Part shown: piece after piece, positions 2,810 through 7,900 of the stretch
Layout: each line of letters begins with the position of its first letter
How positions within the stretch are numbered: the first letter of the stretch is position 1
Source of the DNA: an uncultured Clostridiaceae bacterium
Lineage (GTDB): Bacteria > Bacillota > Clostridia > TANB77 > CAG-508
NCBI GenBank assembly: GCA_930990125.1
Contig: CAKNOI010000014.1
Location: 1 to 35,636 of the forward strand
Direction: 5' to 3'
Length of the DNA: 35,636 nt
Notes under the pieces: generated by a model
Told to the model about the DNA's origin: nothing
Database searches by the model: none
Seen by the model: the letters and a program-made list of their open reading frames with translations, nothing else
Position numbers and translations under genes: made by a program

Positions 2810-3502
2810 ATGATTTATTCAAAAGAAGTAGAAGAAATGTGTAAAGTCCGTAAAGGAGTAGACCATGGACCAGCACCAATTCCAGAAGAAGGAAAATGGG
2901 TAAAGTCAAAAGAAATTAAAGATATTTCTGGTTTAACACATGGTATTGGATGGTGTGCACCACAACAAGGAGCTTGCAAATTAACACTAAATGTAAAAGA
3001 GGGAATTATTCAAGAAGCTTTAGTAGAAACAATTGGATGCTCTGGAATGACACACTCTGCAGCAATGGCAGGAGAAATTTTAGTAGGTAAAACATTATTA
3101 GAAGCATTAAATACAGACCTTGTATGTGATGCTATTAATACTGCAATGCGTGAATTATTTTTACAAATTGTATATGGTAGAACACAATCTGCTTTCTCTG
3201 AAGGAGGTTTACCAGTAGGAGCAGGACTAGAAGATTTAGGAAAAGGACATCGTTCTCAAGTGGGAACTATTTATAGTACACTTTCTAAAGGACCTAGATA
3301 CCTAGAACTTGCAGAAGGATATATAGTAGAAATAGGACTAGATAAAGATGATACCATTATTGGATATAAATATGTAAATTTAGGAAAAATGATGGATAAT
3401 ATCAAAGCTGGAATAGAACCAATGGAAGCCATTGAAAAAGCCAGTGGAACATATGGAAGATTTAACGAGGCAGTGAAAAAAATAGATCCTAGAAAAGAAT
3501 AA
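2810..3502 (+). CDS. NifU/IscU-like iron-sulfur scaffold-type protein, partner of GGGtGRT protein
   Basis: A 230-residue protein with a NifU_N/IscU-like core: strands around CKLTLNVKEGIIQEA, then ETIGCSGMTHSAAM, and a helix with LVCDAINTAM. Cysteines at about 49, 56, 77 and 106 are candidate cluster or metal ligands. In many anaerobic Firmicutes this gene sits directly before a GGGtGRT protein gene, as here, so the two probably act together in an as yet poorly defined iron-sulfur process. An AAAGGAGC ribosome binding site supports the ATG at 2810. Confidence 0.75.
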   Translation: MIYSKEVEEMCKVRKGVDHGPAPIPEEGKWVKSKEIKDISGLTHGIGWCAPQQGACKLTLNVKEGIIQEALVETIGCSGMTHSAAMAGEILVGKTLLEALNTDLVCDAINTAMRELFLQIVYGRTQSAFSEGGLPVGAGLEDLGKGHRSQVGTIYSTLSKGPRYLELAEGYIVEIGLDKDDTIIGYKYVNLGKMMDNIKAGIEPMEAIEKASGTYGRFNEAVKKIDPRKE

Positions 3503-3545: not shown

Positions 3546-4544
3546 ATGGCTTTATTTGAAAGTTATGAAAGAAGAATAGATCAAGTACAAAAAGTGTTAA
3601 ATGACTATGATATCAAAGACTTAGAAGAAGCAAAGAAACTATGCGAGGACAAAGGAATTAATCCAGCTGAGATAGTAAGAGGAATTCAACCAATTTGTTT
3701 TGATAATGCATGTTGGGCATATACCGTAGGTGCTGCTATTGCTATCAAAAAAGGATGTAAAAAAGCATCTGATGCAGCAAAAGCAATAGGAGAAGGGTTA
3801 CAAAGTTTTTGTATACCAGGTTCTGTAGCAGATGACAGAAAAGTAGGATTAGGACATGGTAATTTAGGTGCTATGTTATTATCTGAAGATACAAAATGTT
3901 TTGCATTTTTAGCAGGACACGAAAGCTTTGCTGCAGCAGAAGGAGCAATTGGTATTGCAAAATCTGCTAACAAAGTTAGAAAAGAAGCTTTACGAGTTAT
4001 TTTAAATGGACTTGGAAAAGATGCTGCACAAATTATTTCTAGAATAAATGGATTTACCTATGTAAAAACAGATTTTGACTATTACACAGGAAAACTTACA
4101 ATTCTAGAAGAAATACCATATTCTGATGGAGAAAGAGCAAAAGTAAAATGCTACGGAGCAAATGATGTAAGAGAAGGTGTAGCAATTATGCACCATGAAA
4201 AAGTAGATGTTTCTATTACAGGAAATTCTACTAACCCAACAAGATTCCAACATCCAGTAGCAGGAACATATAAAAAAGAATGTATCGAGCAAGGTAAAAA
4301 ATATTTCTCTGTAGCTTCTGGTGGAGGAACAGGAAGAACACTTCATCCAGATAATATGGCAGCAGGACCAGCATCTTATGGTATGACAGATACTATGGGA
4401 AGAATGCATTCAGATGCACAATTTGCAGGTTCATCTTCTGTACCTGCACACGTAGAAATGATGGGACTTATTGGTATGGGTAACAACCCAATGGTAGGTG
4501 CAACAGTAGCTGTAGCAGTTGCAATAGAAGAAGCAATGAAATAA
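3546..4544 (+). CDS. GGGtGRT family protein
   Basis: A 332-residue protein carrying the family signature GGGTGRT at about residues 259-265, followed by LHPDNMAAGPASYG and a glycine- and alanine-rich C-terminus. The family is conserved in anaerobes and its biochemical function is not established. It lies 43 nt behind the IscU-like gene with a strong AGGAGG site, so the pair is likely one transcript. This is the last clear host gene; the prophage integrase lies tail-on to it. Confidence 0.85.
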   Translation: MALFESYERRIDQVQKVLNDYDIKDLEEAKKLCEDKGINPAEIVRGIQPICFDNACWAYTVGAAIAIKKGCKKASDAAKAIGEGLQSFCIPGSVADDRKVGLGHGNLGAMLLSEDTKCFAFLAGHESFAAAEGAIGIAKSANKVRKEALRVILNGLGKDAAQIISRINGFTYVKTDFDYYTGKLTILEEIPYSDGERAKVKCYGANDVREGVAIMHHEKVDVSITGNSTNPTRFQHPVAGTYKKECIEQGKKYFSVASGGGTGRTLHPDNMAAGPASYGMTDTMGRMHSDAQFAGSSSVPAHVEMMGLIGMGNNPMVGATVAVAVAIEEAMK

Positions 4545-4669: not shown

Positions 4670-5863
4670 TTAAAGCATTTCTATGTATTTTTGATTGTCT
4701 TCTCTAACTTTATCTGTTAATTGATAATAAATCTCTAATGTTACTTTGATATTTTTATGTCCTAACCTCATTTGAACATATTTTAAATCTGCACCATTAG
4801 ACAACAAAAAAGTAGTATGTTTATATCTTAAAGAATGAAAATCATATTCTTTATAATTTATTCCTTTTTCATAATGTATAACTCTACCAACATGTTGCAT
4901 TATTCTAGGAGAAAGAAATTCACCATTTTCTCTCATTGTTGCTAATCTTATAGGCTTTCCTTCTAAATAATTTAATTGTCCTTTTTCATTGACTTTTAAT
5001 TCTTTATAATAAATTCCATATTTTAATTTATTATCATCTTGTTTTTTCTTTTCTCTTTTTAATAATTCAACCATTTTATTACTTAAATCTATATCTCTAA
5101 CGGAATTATATTTAGGTGGTTTTAAGGTCCAAAATTCTTTTATAAACTGTATTTGATGTTTTAAATGTAAAACCTTCTTTTCAAAATCAACATCATTATC
5201 TATATCAACAGCAAAACATTCACCTTGTCTCATTCCACAATGATATCCGAAACACAAAGGTATATAGGCCGTTGTACCTTCAGGAAAACGATTAAAAATT
5301 AGTTTAATTTTATCATCTGGAATAATAACTCTTTTTTTAGTTCTACTAGGCGTATCTGGAATTGAATTTTTAGATGGTAGTTTTACATCTGATGCAGGAT
5401 TAAATGCTAAATATTTTAAAGGAGATACAGCATAACTTAATGAACCATTTATTATACTTTTCATAACTGATAAAGTATTTCTTGAAAAACCTTCATTAAA
5501 TTTTTTTTTGATAAATTTTTGTATAGTTTCGTGTACTAAAGTATTTATTCTGTATTGACCAAGTTCTGGTTTTATATGTAATCTAATTAATTTTTTATAA
5601 CTTAATATTGTATCTTCATCTAATTCTAATTCTCCATATTCCTCAATCCATTTATCTAAATAATCAGAATAACTTATTTCAGAAGGCTTAAAAGCAATTC
5701 CAGACTTATCATATTCTGCTTTTGCTAATGTACCTGCTTCTAAAGCTTCTTTTTTTGTTGCAAATCCACCTTTTGATAGTTGATTTCTCTTGCCATTTAT
5801 AGGAGCTGCTTCAAATCTATATTCCCATGTTTTACCTCTTTTACGAGCCGTTATTTGTCCCAT
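4670..5863 (-). CDS. int: Prophage tyrosine-recombinase integrase
   Basis: A 397-residue phage integrase. The N-terminus (about residues 1-50, TARKRGKTWEYRFEA) is an AP2-like arm-binding domain. A SAM-like core-binding domain follows at about 65-150 and the catalytic domain at about 175-390. Catalytic residues visible are R212 (GMRQGE), H343 and R346 (HSLRYKH), H369 (RLGHKN) and the nucleophile Y379 or Y380 (TLEIYY). It lies tail-to-tail with host gene GGGtGRT, so the left attachment site is probably between 4545 and 4669. A GGAGG site precedes the ATG at 5863. Confidence 0.93.
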   Translation of the reverse strand: MGQITARKRGKTWEYRFEAAPINGKRNQLSKGGFATKKEALEAGTLAKAEYDKSGIAFKPSEISYSDYLDKWIEEYGELELDEDTILSYKKLIRLHIKPELGQYRINTLVHETIQKFIKKKFNEGFSRNTLSVMKSIINGSLSYAVSPLKYLAFNPASDVKLPSKNSIPDTPSRTKKRVIIPDDKIKLIFNRFPEGTTAYIPLCFGYHCGMRQGECFAVDIDNDVDFEKKVLHLKHQIQFIKEFWTLKPPKYNSVRDIDLSNKMVELLKREKKKQDDNKLKYGIYYKELKVNEKGQLNYLEGKPIRLATMRENGEFLSPRIMQHVGRVIHYEKGINYKEYDFHSLRYKHTTFLLSNGADLKYVQMRLGHKNIKVTLEIYYQLTDKVREDNQKYIEML

Positions 5864-5905
5864 AAAAATACCTCCATTTTTCTTAAATTATTTTTATATA
5901 AACAC

Positions 5906-5934
5906 TTGAAAAATGAAGGCTTTTTGTATATAAT
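5906..5934 (+). promoter_or_regulatory. Sigma-A promoter of predicted small RNA
   Basis: TTGAAA (5906-5911), a 17-nt spacer and TATAAT (5929-5934) lie on the plus strand in the gap between two minus-strand genes. No plus-strand coding gene follows; instead two stem-loops and a U-rich tract come immediately downstream. The expected start point is about 5941. Confidence 0.75.
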
Positions 5935-5940
5935 TCAAAA

Positions 5941-6022
5941 GTAATCACTTTCCAAAGTGGTTATTCCTTGGATAATGTGTGGCTTCCGCAAAAAAGAAAC
6001 ACATTATCCTTCTTTTTGTTTT
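5941..6022 (+). ncRNA. Predicted antisense small RNA of the lysogeny region
   Basis: A promoter-to-terminator unit of about 82 nt. Hairpin 1 pairs AATCACTTT (5943-5951) with AAAGTGGTT (5954-5962). Hairpin 2 pairs GGATAATGTGT (5970-5980) with ACACATTATCC (5999-6009) around an 18-nt loop, and a T-rich tract (6010-6022) follows. Positions 5976-5990, TGTGTGGCTTCCGCA, are the exact complement of 7619-7633 in the rightward early transcript; ten of those bases are in the hairpin 2 loop. It is therefore a candidate trans-acting antisense RNA that pairs by loop contact. The RNA would also be antisense to the untranslated gap of the int-membrane protein transcript. Expression and targeting are inferred. 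Confidence 0.65.
5999..6022 (+). terminator. Rho-independent terminator of the small RNA
   Basis: The distal arm of the perfect 11-bp stem (5970-5980 with 5999-6009) is followed by TTCTTTTTGTTTT on the plus strand. On the minus strand the same stem has no U-tract, so the element is directional and ends plus-strand transcription just at the 3' end of the opposing gene. Confidence 0.7.
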
Positions 6023-6410
6023 ATATAAGATTGTATATATTATTAAGAACTTGTCCATTTTCATACAAATCTTTATCTGCATATCTCACAGTTTTTAATT
6101 GGCCATCTTTTAAGTAAATAATTGCGTTATAAGCATACGACTTAACTCTAAAACCAAGTGTATTTTCTCCATCTAAGCCATCTAGTGAATCATCTCTAGT
6201 TAAAGAAAAATTAGAAATTCCACATTGTGATAAAATATTTAAAGTGTTTTCTACGTTTTCTGGTTCCATATAACTTATTAACATATCGTAATTTGCATCG
6301 CTTTCATCAGTCGGAGAATTAGTAGCAAAGTTAACGAAATAGACAAATGCAATCACGATAATTATTAAAAGTATGCCTGGTCCTATCCCTGTAATTTTTT
6401 GATTCTTCAT
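6021..6410 (-). CDS. Small membrane-anchored protein of the lysogeny module
   Basis: About 129 residues with one hydrophobic segment near the N-terminus (GPGILLIIIVIAFVYFVNFA), then an acidic soluble domain that is probably outside the cell. The start at 6410 (MKNQKITG) is chosen because a GGGGG site lies about 8 nt upstream; the longer reading frame from 6503 overlaps the repressor and has no such site. I do not recognise a family. Expressed from the lysogen with repressor and integrase, it could be a superinfection or host-interaction factor, but that is only positional inference. Confidence 0.7.
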   Translation of the reverse strand: MKNQKITGIGPGILLIIIVIAFVYFVNFATNSPTDESDANYDMLISYMEPENVENTLNILSQCGISNFSLTRDDSLDGLDGENTLGFRVKSYAYNAIIYLKDGQLKTVRYADKDLYENGQVLNNIYNLI

Positions 6411-6492: not shown

Positions 6493-7227
6493 TTAATCTT
6501 CATTTTGTGAGTCTTGTGAAGATTTTTTTTTCGTGTATTTTGGTATTTCTGTTAAATCTTTTATATAAATATTTGCTGTTTGTTTACCTAGCTCATTAAG
6601 TTTTGAATAATCATCTAGTAAATGAATAGAATAATTACCATATTGTTTTTGTATTTCTTCTTGAATGTTTTGAGAAATGATAATTTTATCTTTATTTAAT
6701 GAGTTTATTAATTCATTAACTTTTTGTTTAGTATAATTTTGAATTTCCAACATTTTATTGTGTTCATCTGCTGAATGAGGTAAACAGAAATCAAACGATT
6801 CTCCTAGAGTTTTATCTATTTTATTTCCAAAAAAATTAGCAGCAATAGATTGAATTATACAGAAAGCCTTTTCAATTTTAGAATTGCTAAAGTTTTCCTT
6901 AGAAATTGAATTAATAATTTGGTTGGAAGAGTAATAGTCTAAAACATGTTTAGTAGCTTCTTCCAGTTCTTTTTCTGATAAATGTAAAGCGGCTAGCTTT
7001 TCTTCTAAAATTTGTTTTGGATTGTCTATATCTGTATTGCCTAATAAATAATCAGTAGATACACCAAATAAAGTAGATATTTTTTGCAATATTTCTACTG
7101 AAGGTAGATTTTTAGATGTTTCATAATTAGCAATATTAGAGCGAGAAATATTTAATTTATTTGCTAGCTCTTCTTGTGAAAGAAAGTGGATTTGTCTTAA
7201 ATGTTTTAAAATTGTTCCAAAATTCAT
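6493..7227 (-). CDS. XRE-family phage repressor
   Basis: A 244-residue protein with an N-terminal XRE helix-turn-helix at about residues 5-60 (LSQEELANKLNISRSNIANYE). The remainder is helical and charged and probably mediates oligomerisation. No S24 peptidase Ser/Lys pair is evident, so induction is unlikely to run through LexA-type self-cleavage. It is transcribed leftward from the promoter at 7252-7280 and faces the Cro-like gene at 7369. This layout is the classic lysogeny switch. The ribosome binding site AAGGAGG lies at 7235-7241. Confidence 0.88.
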   Translation of the reverse strand: MNFGTILKHLRQIHFLSQEELANKLNISRSNIANYETSKNLPSVEILQKISTLFGVSTDYLLGNTDIDNPKQILEEKLAALHLSEKELEEATKHVLDYYSSNQIINSISKENFSNSKIEKAFCIIQSIAANFFGNKIDKTLGESFDFCLPHSADEHNKMLEIQNYTKQKVNELINSLNKDKIIISQNIQEEIQKQYGNYSIHLLDDYSKLNELGKQTANIYIKDLTEIPKYTKKKSSQDSQNED

Positions 7228-7308: not shown

Positions 7309-7337
7309 TTGACAGTCAAACAAACATAATATATAAT
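7309..7337 (+). promoter_or_regulatory. Rightward early (lytic) promoter with operator
   Basis: TTGACA (7309-7314), a 17-nt spacer and TATAAT (7332-7337) are a perfect sigma-A promoter. The -35 box lies in the near-palindrome TTGACAGTCAA (7309-7319), a plausible repressor operator. It drives the Cro-like gene and the early lytic operon. Confidence 0.85.
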
Positions 7338-7353
7338 GTCAGTGAAAGAAACA
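7335..7353 (+). repeat. 19-nt leader repeat, copy 1
   Basis: AATGTCAGTGAAAGAAACA spans the promoter -10 and the transcript start, immediately before the ribosome binding site of the Cro-like gene. An identical copy lies at 7557-7575, before the next ribosome binding site. Confidence 0.8.
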
Positions 7354-7368: not shown

Positions 7369-7551
7369 ATGAGAAGCAAACTTATAGAATTAAGAAAGAA
7401 AAAAGGATATACTCAAAAAGAAATGGCAGATAACCTAAAAATAGCAAGGAGCACATATGCAGGTTATGAATCCGGTAATTTTTATCCATCACTTAGAATA
7501 GCTTCTGAAATAAAAAGAATATTAAAATACGGAAAAGACGATCTTTTTTAA
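7369..7551 (+). CDS. Cro-like XRE helix-turn-helix protein
   Basis: A 60-residue protein that is almost entirely an XRE helix-turn-helix domain (KKKGYTQKEMADNLKIARSTYAGYESG). It is the first gene of the rightward operon and lies opposite the larger repressor. By position it is the Cro or early antirepressor-type regulator. An AAGGAGG site at 7355-7361 supports the ATG. Confidence 0.85.
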   Translation: MRSKLIELRKKKGYTQKEMADNLKIARSTYAGYESGNFYPSLRIASEIKRILKYGKDDLF

Positions 7552-7556
7552 TACAA

Positions 7557-7575
7557 AATGTCAGTGAAAGAAACA
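7557..7575 (+). repeat. 19-nt leader repeat, copy 2
   Basis: This is an exact copy of the sequence at 7335-7353, again placed just upstream of a ribosome binding site (that of the ORF at 7589). The repetition of the same leader before two consecutive genes suggests either a local duplication or a shared binding site. Confidence 0.8.
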
Positions 7576-7588
7576 TGAGGAGGATGGT

Positions 7589-7663
7589 ATGAAAAAAAGA
7601 TTAAGAAATCGTGGAAAATGCGGAAGCCACACAGAAAAAAATAAGAAGAAGGAGGGAGAATAG
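7589..7663 (+). CDS. 24-codon basic peptide ORF, predicted small-RNA target
   Basis: ATG at 7589 follows a GAGGAGG site and opens a 24-residue, strongly basic peptide (MKKRLRNRGKCGSHTEKN...). Its TAG stop abuts the ATG of the Xis-like gene, so translation of the two is probably coupled. Codons 11-15 lie in the 15-nt segment complementary to the predicted small RNA. It may be a leader peptide rather than a functional protein. Confidence 0.5.
   Translation: MKKRLRNRGKCGSHTEKNKKKEGE
7619..7633 (+). promoter_or_regulatory. 15-nt site complementary to the small RNA
   Basis: TGCGGAAGCCACACA matches the reverse complement of 5976-5990 without mismatch. Nine of 15 bases are G or C in an AT-rich region. 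It lies inside the mini-ORF, 31 nt before the Xis-like start codon. Pairing would plausibly reduce translation of both. Confidence 0.6.
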
Positions 7664-7900
7664 ATGGAAGATGTTTTATATACAGTAGCAGAAACGGCTA
7701 AACTGTTAAAAACAAATACTAATTACGTATACGACCTAATCAATAAAGGTTTATTATCTGCCTTAAAATTAGGAAGCTATAAAATAAGAAGAAGTACATT
7801 AATGGAATTTTTGGAGAAATTTGAAGGATATGATTTAACTGATGTAAATAATGTCAAAGAATTAACGAAAGGAGAAAAAAAGAATGTTAGCAGTAATTAG
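7664..7900 (+). CDS. Excisionase-like helix-turn-helix protein
   Basis: A 78-residue protein with a MerR/Xis-type winged helix-turn-helix: LYTVAETAKLLKTNTNYVYDLINKGLLSALKLGSYKIRRSTLMEFL. This is the usual form of the excisionase family DNA-binding domain. In this position it could assist integrase in excision or act as a second early regulator. Its start abuts the stop of the 24-codon ORF, which suggests coupled translation and possible control by the predicted small RNA. Confidence 0.8.
   Translation: MEDVLYTVAETAKLLKTNTNYVYDLINKGLLSALKLGSYKIRRSTLMEFLEKFEGYDLTDVNNVKELTKGEKKNVSSN

Follow-up and report, generated by a model that had tools for sequence, protein, structure and literature searches.

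Plasmid antisense RNAs such as those of the RNAI/RNAII and CopA/CopT pairs use loop sequence to set mutual specificity, which gives rise to incompatibility groups. These RNAs and their targets are transcribed from opposite strands of the same DNA, which makes their complementarity automatic. Among temperate phages, the RNA called sar is part of the second immunity region of P22 and is transcribed from within the ant region under its control. This small RNA blocks the translation of an early gene and so supports lysogeny (PMC12197685). The c4 RNA of phages P1 and P7 is ∼80 nt long, and its loops pair close to an early gene's ribosome-binding site, with loop differences setting specificity and heteroimmunity (PMC5320573, PMC12197685). 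It adopts a three-stem fold and is cut from a larger transcript by RNase P (PMC5320573). In phage P4, the CI RNA (seqA/seqC) is an antisense RNA that keeps the early genes off in the lysogen via sites on the early transcript. It is processed from a primary untranslated transcript that carries target sites on either side, and it acts by premature termination (PMC4825925).

The window considered here is a stretch of 35,636 nt, contig CAKNOI010000014.1 of an uncultured Clostridiaceae bacterium (GCA_930990125.1; TANB77; CAG-508), and it carries a prophage of an uncultured gut Clostridia. The prophage encodes a small RNA (sRNA) that very probably represents a true antisense RNA switch, giving each prophage its own RNA “lock and key.” The sRNA locus lies next to a divergent tyrosine integrase gene (4670–5863, minus strand; Pfam Phage_integrase, 2.4e-18). 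A first-pass annotation of the sequence had proposed a plus-strand promoter (TTGAAA, 17 nt, TATAAT), and this site (5906–5934) indeed scores 11/12 and ranks second among the sigma-70-like sites found between 4000 and 9500. Because the promoter scan as a whole does not rise above its shuffles, the site gains weight solely from its conservation in relatives, in which the CACTTGAAAAATGAAG part is kept. The promoter spacer (AAATGAAG after TTGAAA) faces the integrase start and is conserved beyond what a promoter needs, and it could double as part of the integrase promoter or be a binding site for a regulator.

The predicted RNA occupies ∼82 nt of the plus strand (5941–6022), where no plus-strand gene of note was found, as had been claimed. 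It folds into two hairpins with an energy of −25.9 kcal/mol (z = −5.2), and none of 200 shuffled sequences is equally stable. Hairpin 1 spans 5941–5964, whereas hairpin 2 (5970–6009) presents the specificity loop on a stem that precedes the U-rich 3′ end TTCTTTTTGTTTT. The two stable stem-loops and the T-rich end noticed earlier are thus both present. A terminator scan did not call the 3′ end of the sRNA because the loop of hairpin 2 exceeds the size limit of the scan. We infer that the sRNA is transcribed independently, from its own promoter beside the integrase gene. As far as the sequence can tell, the presence of this conserved promoter just before the sRNA argues against RNase P processing from a larger transcript.

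A DNA search of related genomes revealed seven more copies of the locus (L010–L016), each of which shares the promoter and the two-hairpin arrangement. The eight homologs were used to build a covariance model (R1), and their consensus structure comprises 19 base pairs, 10 of which have both partners changed with pairing retained, including pairs in the stem of hairpin 2. Of 292 genomes of the same family, 59 contain matches to the model, and matches also extend to two other families within the same order. In a wider sample of the class, matches came from that order only, and in a sample of the phylum the model matched only the window's own genome. Further copies were found through the promoter pattern in named metagenome-assembled genomes, mostly of uncultured gut Clostridia, and in viral contigs; the promoter pattern succeeded there, whereas a query with the integrase found no relatives among the viral contigs. 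Pattern matches in Treponema, Paenibacillus, and Methanobrevibacter records were left unconfirmed by the covariance model and were set aside as chance occurrences.

In total, 95 distinct sRNA copies from prophages of related uncultured Clostridia were compared; these are mutually related, so counts among them are not independent events and the argument rests on the number of specificity classes and on controls. An integrase adjoins the sRNA in 67 of 70 cases, 62 of the tyrosine type and five of the serine type. In one prophage, an Rfam DUF3800-I RNA and a DUF3800-like gene are inserted between the antisense RNA and cI (L012:8302–8433), and this slot seems to hold variable cargo genes. Another contig (G314 contig C123) carries two RNA copies (3237–3360 and 3898–4020) separated by ∼540 nt.

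No Rfam family matches the sRNA in the window or in 11 relatives. The Rfam C4 covariance model specifically gave no match at the gathering score in these same sequences, and C4 was absent from the matches to positions 5880–6060 up to E = 10. Likewise, blastn with the sRNA found no match among 50,697 phage records, and a literature search of incomplete coverage found no description of such an antisense RNA in Clostridia phages.

Downstream from the sRNA, the window carries a CI-type repressor gene (6493–7227, minus strand; HTH_3, 9e-14; phrog_8, 5.1e-23), an early lytic (cro) promoter identified in the promoter scan (TTGACA-17-TATAAT, 7309–7337), and a gene for a cro-like repressor (7369–7551; HTH_3, 6.5e-11), the latter two on the plus strand. 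The pairing segment UGUGUGGCUUCCGCA of the sRNA (5976–5990), comprising five stem and ten loop bases of hairpin 2, is perfectly complementary over exactly 15 nt to the plus-strand mRNA site 7619–7633, termed T1. The complement described in the first-pass annotation is therefore real and its position on the early lytic mRNA correct, but T1 does not reside in the 5′ leader of that mRNA. Instead, it is located between cro and the next gene (7664–7900), inside a 24-codon leader open reading frame (ORF; 7589–7663) whose TAG stop codon abuts the ATG of that gene. A Shine-Dalgarno (SD) sequence, AAGGAGG, follows at 7649–7655, and the gene itself codes for a 78-amino-acid winged-helix, excisionase-like protein (HTH_17, 2.6e-12; phrog_66 excisionase, 1.7e-5).

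Such a match had been estimated to be improbable by chance, and this expectation holds. When the sRNA was shuffled 4000 times with its dinucleotide composition preserved, no shuffle reached the T1 score against either the 321-nt leader or 3 kb of downstream sequence, and the complementary 14-mer occurs at only two places in the whole 1.38 Mb genome, the sRNA and T1. The sRNA–target complex is predicted at −45.9 kcal/mol, compared with −25.9 and −4.4 kcal/mol for the separate RNAs. The nucleotides of the sRNA loop are predicted to be unpaired or weakly paired, and the duplex would reach into the 5′ arm of the stem.

Comparison of the copies makes the case for pairing much stronger. Although the stems and the promoter are conserved, the loop and the target covary, as the first-pass annotation had suggested could be checked in related prophages. 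Among the 78 testable copies, which are those with at least 2.6 kb of downstream DNA, 61 possess their own perfect complement of 12–23 nt within 3 kb downstream. Controls yielded almost nothing: same-sense, complemented, and upstream searches each gave 0 of 78, and a reversed search gave 1 of 78. When sRNAs and target regions were mispaired, 143 of 6006 sets (2.4%) matched, and 110 of these 143 share a target class. Complementarity is thus kept rather than lost in close relatives even as the loops differ, since 71 matched pairs (any downstream length) fall into 43 loop/target specificity classes. The mean duplex energy is −29.9 kcal/mol for cognate pairs versus −14.6 kcal/mol for non-cognate pairs, and the observed sum was not attained in any of 10,000 permutations. 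Energy alone does not make the classes fully orthogonal, because for 14 of the 71 sRNAs another target in the set, mostly of the same class, scores at least as well as their own.

A natural swap illustrates this joint change. Between L073/L107 and L066, the sRNA loci are 84% identical and the target genes nearly identical, whereas the loop and the target have been replaced together. In three further copies (L155, L158, and L159), the complement is perfect but for a single G-U pair or a single mismatch. Approximately 14 of the 78 copies have no recognizable target in their downstream DNA. Three copies without a target (L150, L151, and L160) also lack a long integrase-like ORF directly adjacent, and this subgroup could represent a related RNA that serves a different purpose. 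A second target is not a general property of the sRNAs, since second matches differ from controls only at scores of 30 or more (4 of 62 versus 0 of 124). L120 is the only copy with a convincing tandem target (GGAAGCCACACA), which lies 698 nt past the first, before another gene, with the same leader and SD layout.

The place of the target is constant, just downstream from cro and beside the SD of the next gene. The median distance from the target end to the start codon is 21 nt. In 67 of 71 cases the target is followed by an ORF, which mostly has a clear SD. In 38 of the 71 prophages, the target is traversed by a short leader ORF that has an SD of its own, and several others have a cro gene whose end falls at the target or within it. 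The leader ORFs cross the target in all three reading phases (14, 13, and 11 cases), which indicates that the site is conserved as nucleotides rather than as a peptide; coding conservation of a leader peptide was rejected on these grounds.

The genes that follow the target code for short, diverse products, and those that can be recognized are winged-helix, excisionase, or other helix–turn–helix proteins. The structure model of the window's target protein resembles MerR, BldC, and Xis folds at weak E-values (e.g., Pukovnik Xis, 1.0 Å over 47 columns, E = 0.25). A second common group of target proteins, most likely PHROG 6058 of unknown function, was also modeled as a small winged-helix-like protein with weak PDB matches. 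A single conserved target protein was considered and rejected because the products are not homologous as a set, and for the same reason no single protein can be named as the physiological output. Given that the proteins are diverse while the place of the target is fixed, what the RNA guards is not any one gene but a position, the point of entry into the operon past cro. Since T1 is upstream of the SD, any masking of the SD depends on steric effects or on leader coupling. The sRNA linker makes anti-SD contacts in 23 of 91 copies versus 9.2 expected from linker shuffles, but this enrichment (∼2.5-fold) is weak, and we do not claim such pairing.

Operator-like repeats accompany these loci. In the window, the repeat AATGTCAGTGAAAGAAACA occurs at 7335–7353, at the start of cro transcription, and again at 7557–7575, upstream of T1 (both annotated on the plus strand). 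At least 28 of 71 prophages have their own operator-like repeats of at least 17 nt, compared with 21 of 1051 mispaired combinations and 0 of 71 reversed ones. These repeats, many of them inverted, are found at the cro transcription start and some 30–50 nt upstream of the target. The second copy usually has no TTGACA upstream and may serve the repressor as a roadblock beside the RNA target. Prophages of one operator family (L073/L103/L107, L010, L093, and L085) carry at least four different RNA loops, and the specificity of the RNA therefore appears to vary independently of that of the repressor.

We consider it likely that an independently transcribed phage antisense RNA blocks expression beyond cro and so gives these phages a second, RNA-based immunity specificity. 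The sRNA would be made from its own promoter beside the integrase gene, and the loop of hairpin 2 would start pairing at a single-stranded site just past cro on the early lytic mRNA. The duplex would then extend into the stem of hairpin 2 and displace its 3′ arm. Because the bound RNA would adjoin the SD of the first gene past cro and, in the window, would lie within the leader ORF, translation initiation or reinitiation should be blocked, and polarity over the operon would perhaps follow. In a lysogen, leaky early lytic or excision functions would be silenced, whereas on superinfection the sRNA would act in trans on phages that carry the same target. As loops and targets diversify together, many specificities independent of the CI operator would arise. 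Prophages that share one genome (e.g., the window and L015, or L011 and L012) have different loops, which is compatible with immunity, although few such pairs would be expected to coincide in class by chance in any case. Antisense control of lysis versus lysogeny, as originally suggested, is the best reading of the retained complementarity, with the target at a ribosome-binding region distal to cro rather than in the 5′ leader of the mRNA.

The same pairing at the same site would be equally well supported if the RNA were an activator that opens or stabilizes the mRNA, or prevents termination, to promote early lytic or excision expression. The location of T1 upstream of the SD rather than over it suits this alternative. 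However, the SD in the window is already predicted to be unpaired (0.98), leaving nothing obvious to open, and the known phage analogs with targets on early transcripts repress (PMC12197685, PMC4825925). We therefore regard activation as improbable. Somewhat less probable still is the possibility that the lytic transcript is a sponge, with T1 titrating the sRNA away from a real target elsewhere. The lack of a fixed reading phase at T1 and its presence in a non-conserved leader would be expected of a sponge, but the only exact loop complement in the genome is T1 itself, and a site held ∼21 nt before a start codon, with an ORF nearly always behind it, speaks against a sponge.

Two explanations that dispense with an antisense regulator of this kind seem very improbable, and to about the same degree. 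Loop and target form inverted repeats 0.8–2.6 kb apart, which could conceivably serve as DNA elements at which the repressor module is inverted or proteins bind. This proposal does not account for the conserved promoter, hairpins, and U-rich end or for the fixed position of the target relative to the SD, and the cI–cro module has the same orientation in seven mapped prophages. Moreover, L155, L156, and L159 carry G-U substitutions that break DNA identity but are compatible with RNA pairing, and these favor recognition of RNA over DNA. Alternatively, the leader peptide or the next gene could be the toxin of a type I toxin–antitoxin system with the RNA as antitoxin. Short ORFs do overlap T1 in 38 of 71 cases, and systems of this type occur on Clostridia prophages (PMC6563280, PMC7699646). 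At the targets examined, however, no short hydrophobic toxin ORF under antisense control was found: The leader peptides are basic, neither hydrophobic nor conserved, and are crossed by T1 in all three phases, and the target genes that were recognized or modeled encode small DNA-binding-like proteins.

An antisense RNA that represses beyond cro would work like c4, P4 CI RNA, and sar, its nearest counterparts in action, yet by comparison with them it belongs to none of their families. As with c4, the predicted interaction brings a loop close to where ribosomes bind the mRNA of an early phage gene, and the loop varies with its target. Unlike c4, the RNA here has its own promoter beside an integrase gene, consists of two hairpins ending in a U-run, and matches a target 0.8–2.6 kb away, beyond cI and cro. 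The P4 CI RNA shares a transcript with its targets, whereas the sRNA described here would be transcribed separately from a target at an SD past cI and cro. In contrast to sar, the RNA gene is found outside the region that it would control, 0.8–2.6 kb from its target, and yet the two coevolve. Loop sequence would set mutual specificity as it does for RNAI/RNAII and CopA/CopT, but in this case two separate loci must covary to remain complementary.

Well-studied antisense RNAs that control phage immunity are few (c4, CI RNA, and sar), and they come from enterobacterial phages. We judge the odds to be about even that temperate phages of this order of uncultured Clostridia possess an RNA immunity with more than 40 specificities, which would act in trans on superinfecting phages, reassort independently of the type of CI repressor and operator, and constitute a Gram-positive equivalent of the second immunity regions known from P1 and P22. 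If our interpretation is true, uncultured gut Clostridia harbor an unrelated family of antisense RNAs and, with it, dozens of coevolved loop/target pairs that form a natural library and whose two halves are encoded apart from each other. The evolution of RNA–RNA specificity, and the joint change of two separated sites, would then become directly testable. The loop/target pairs are also candidate sets of distinct regulator pairs, and they would provide a predictor, readable from sequence, of which prophages should exclude which phages.
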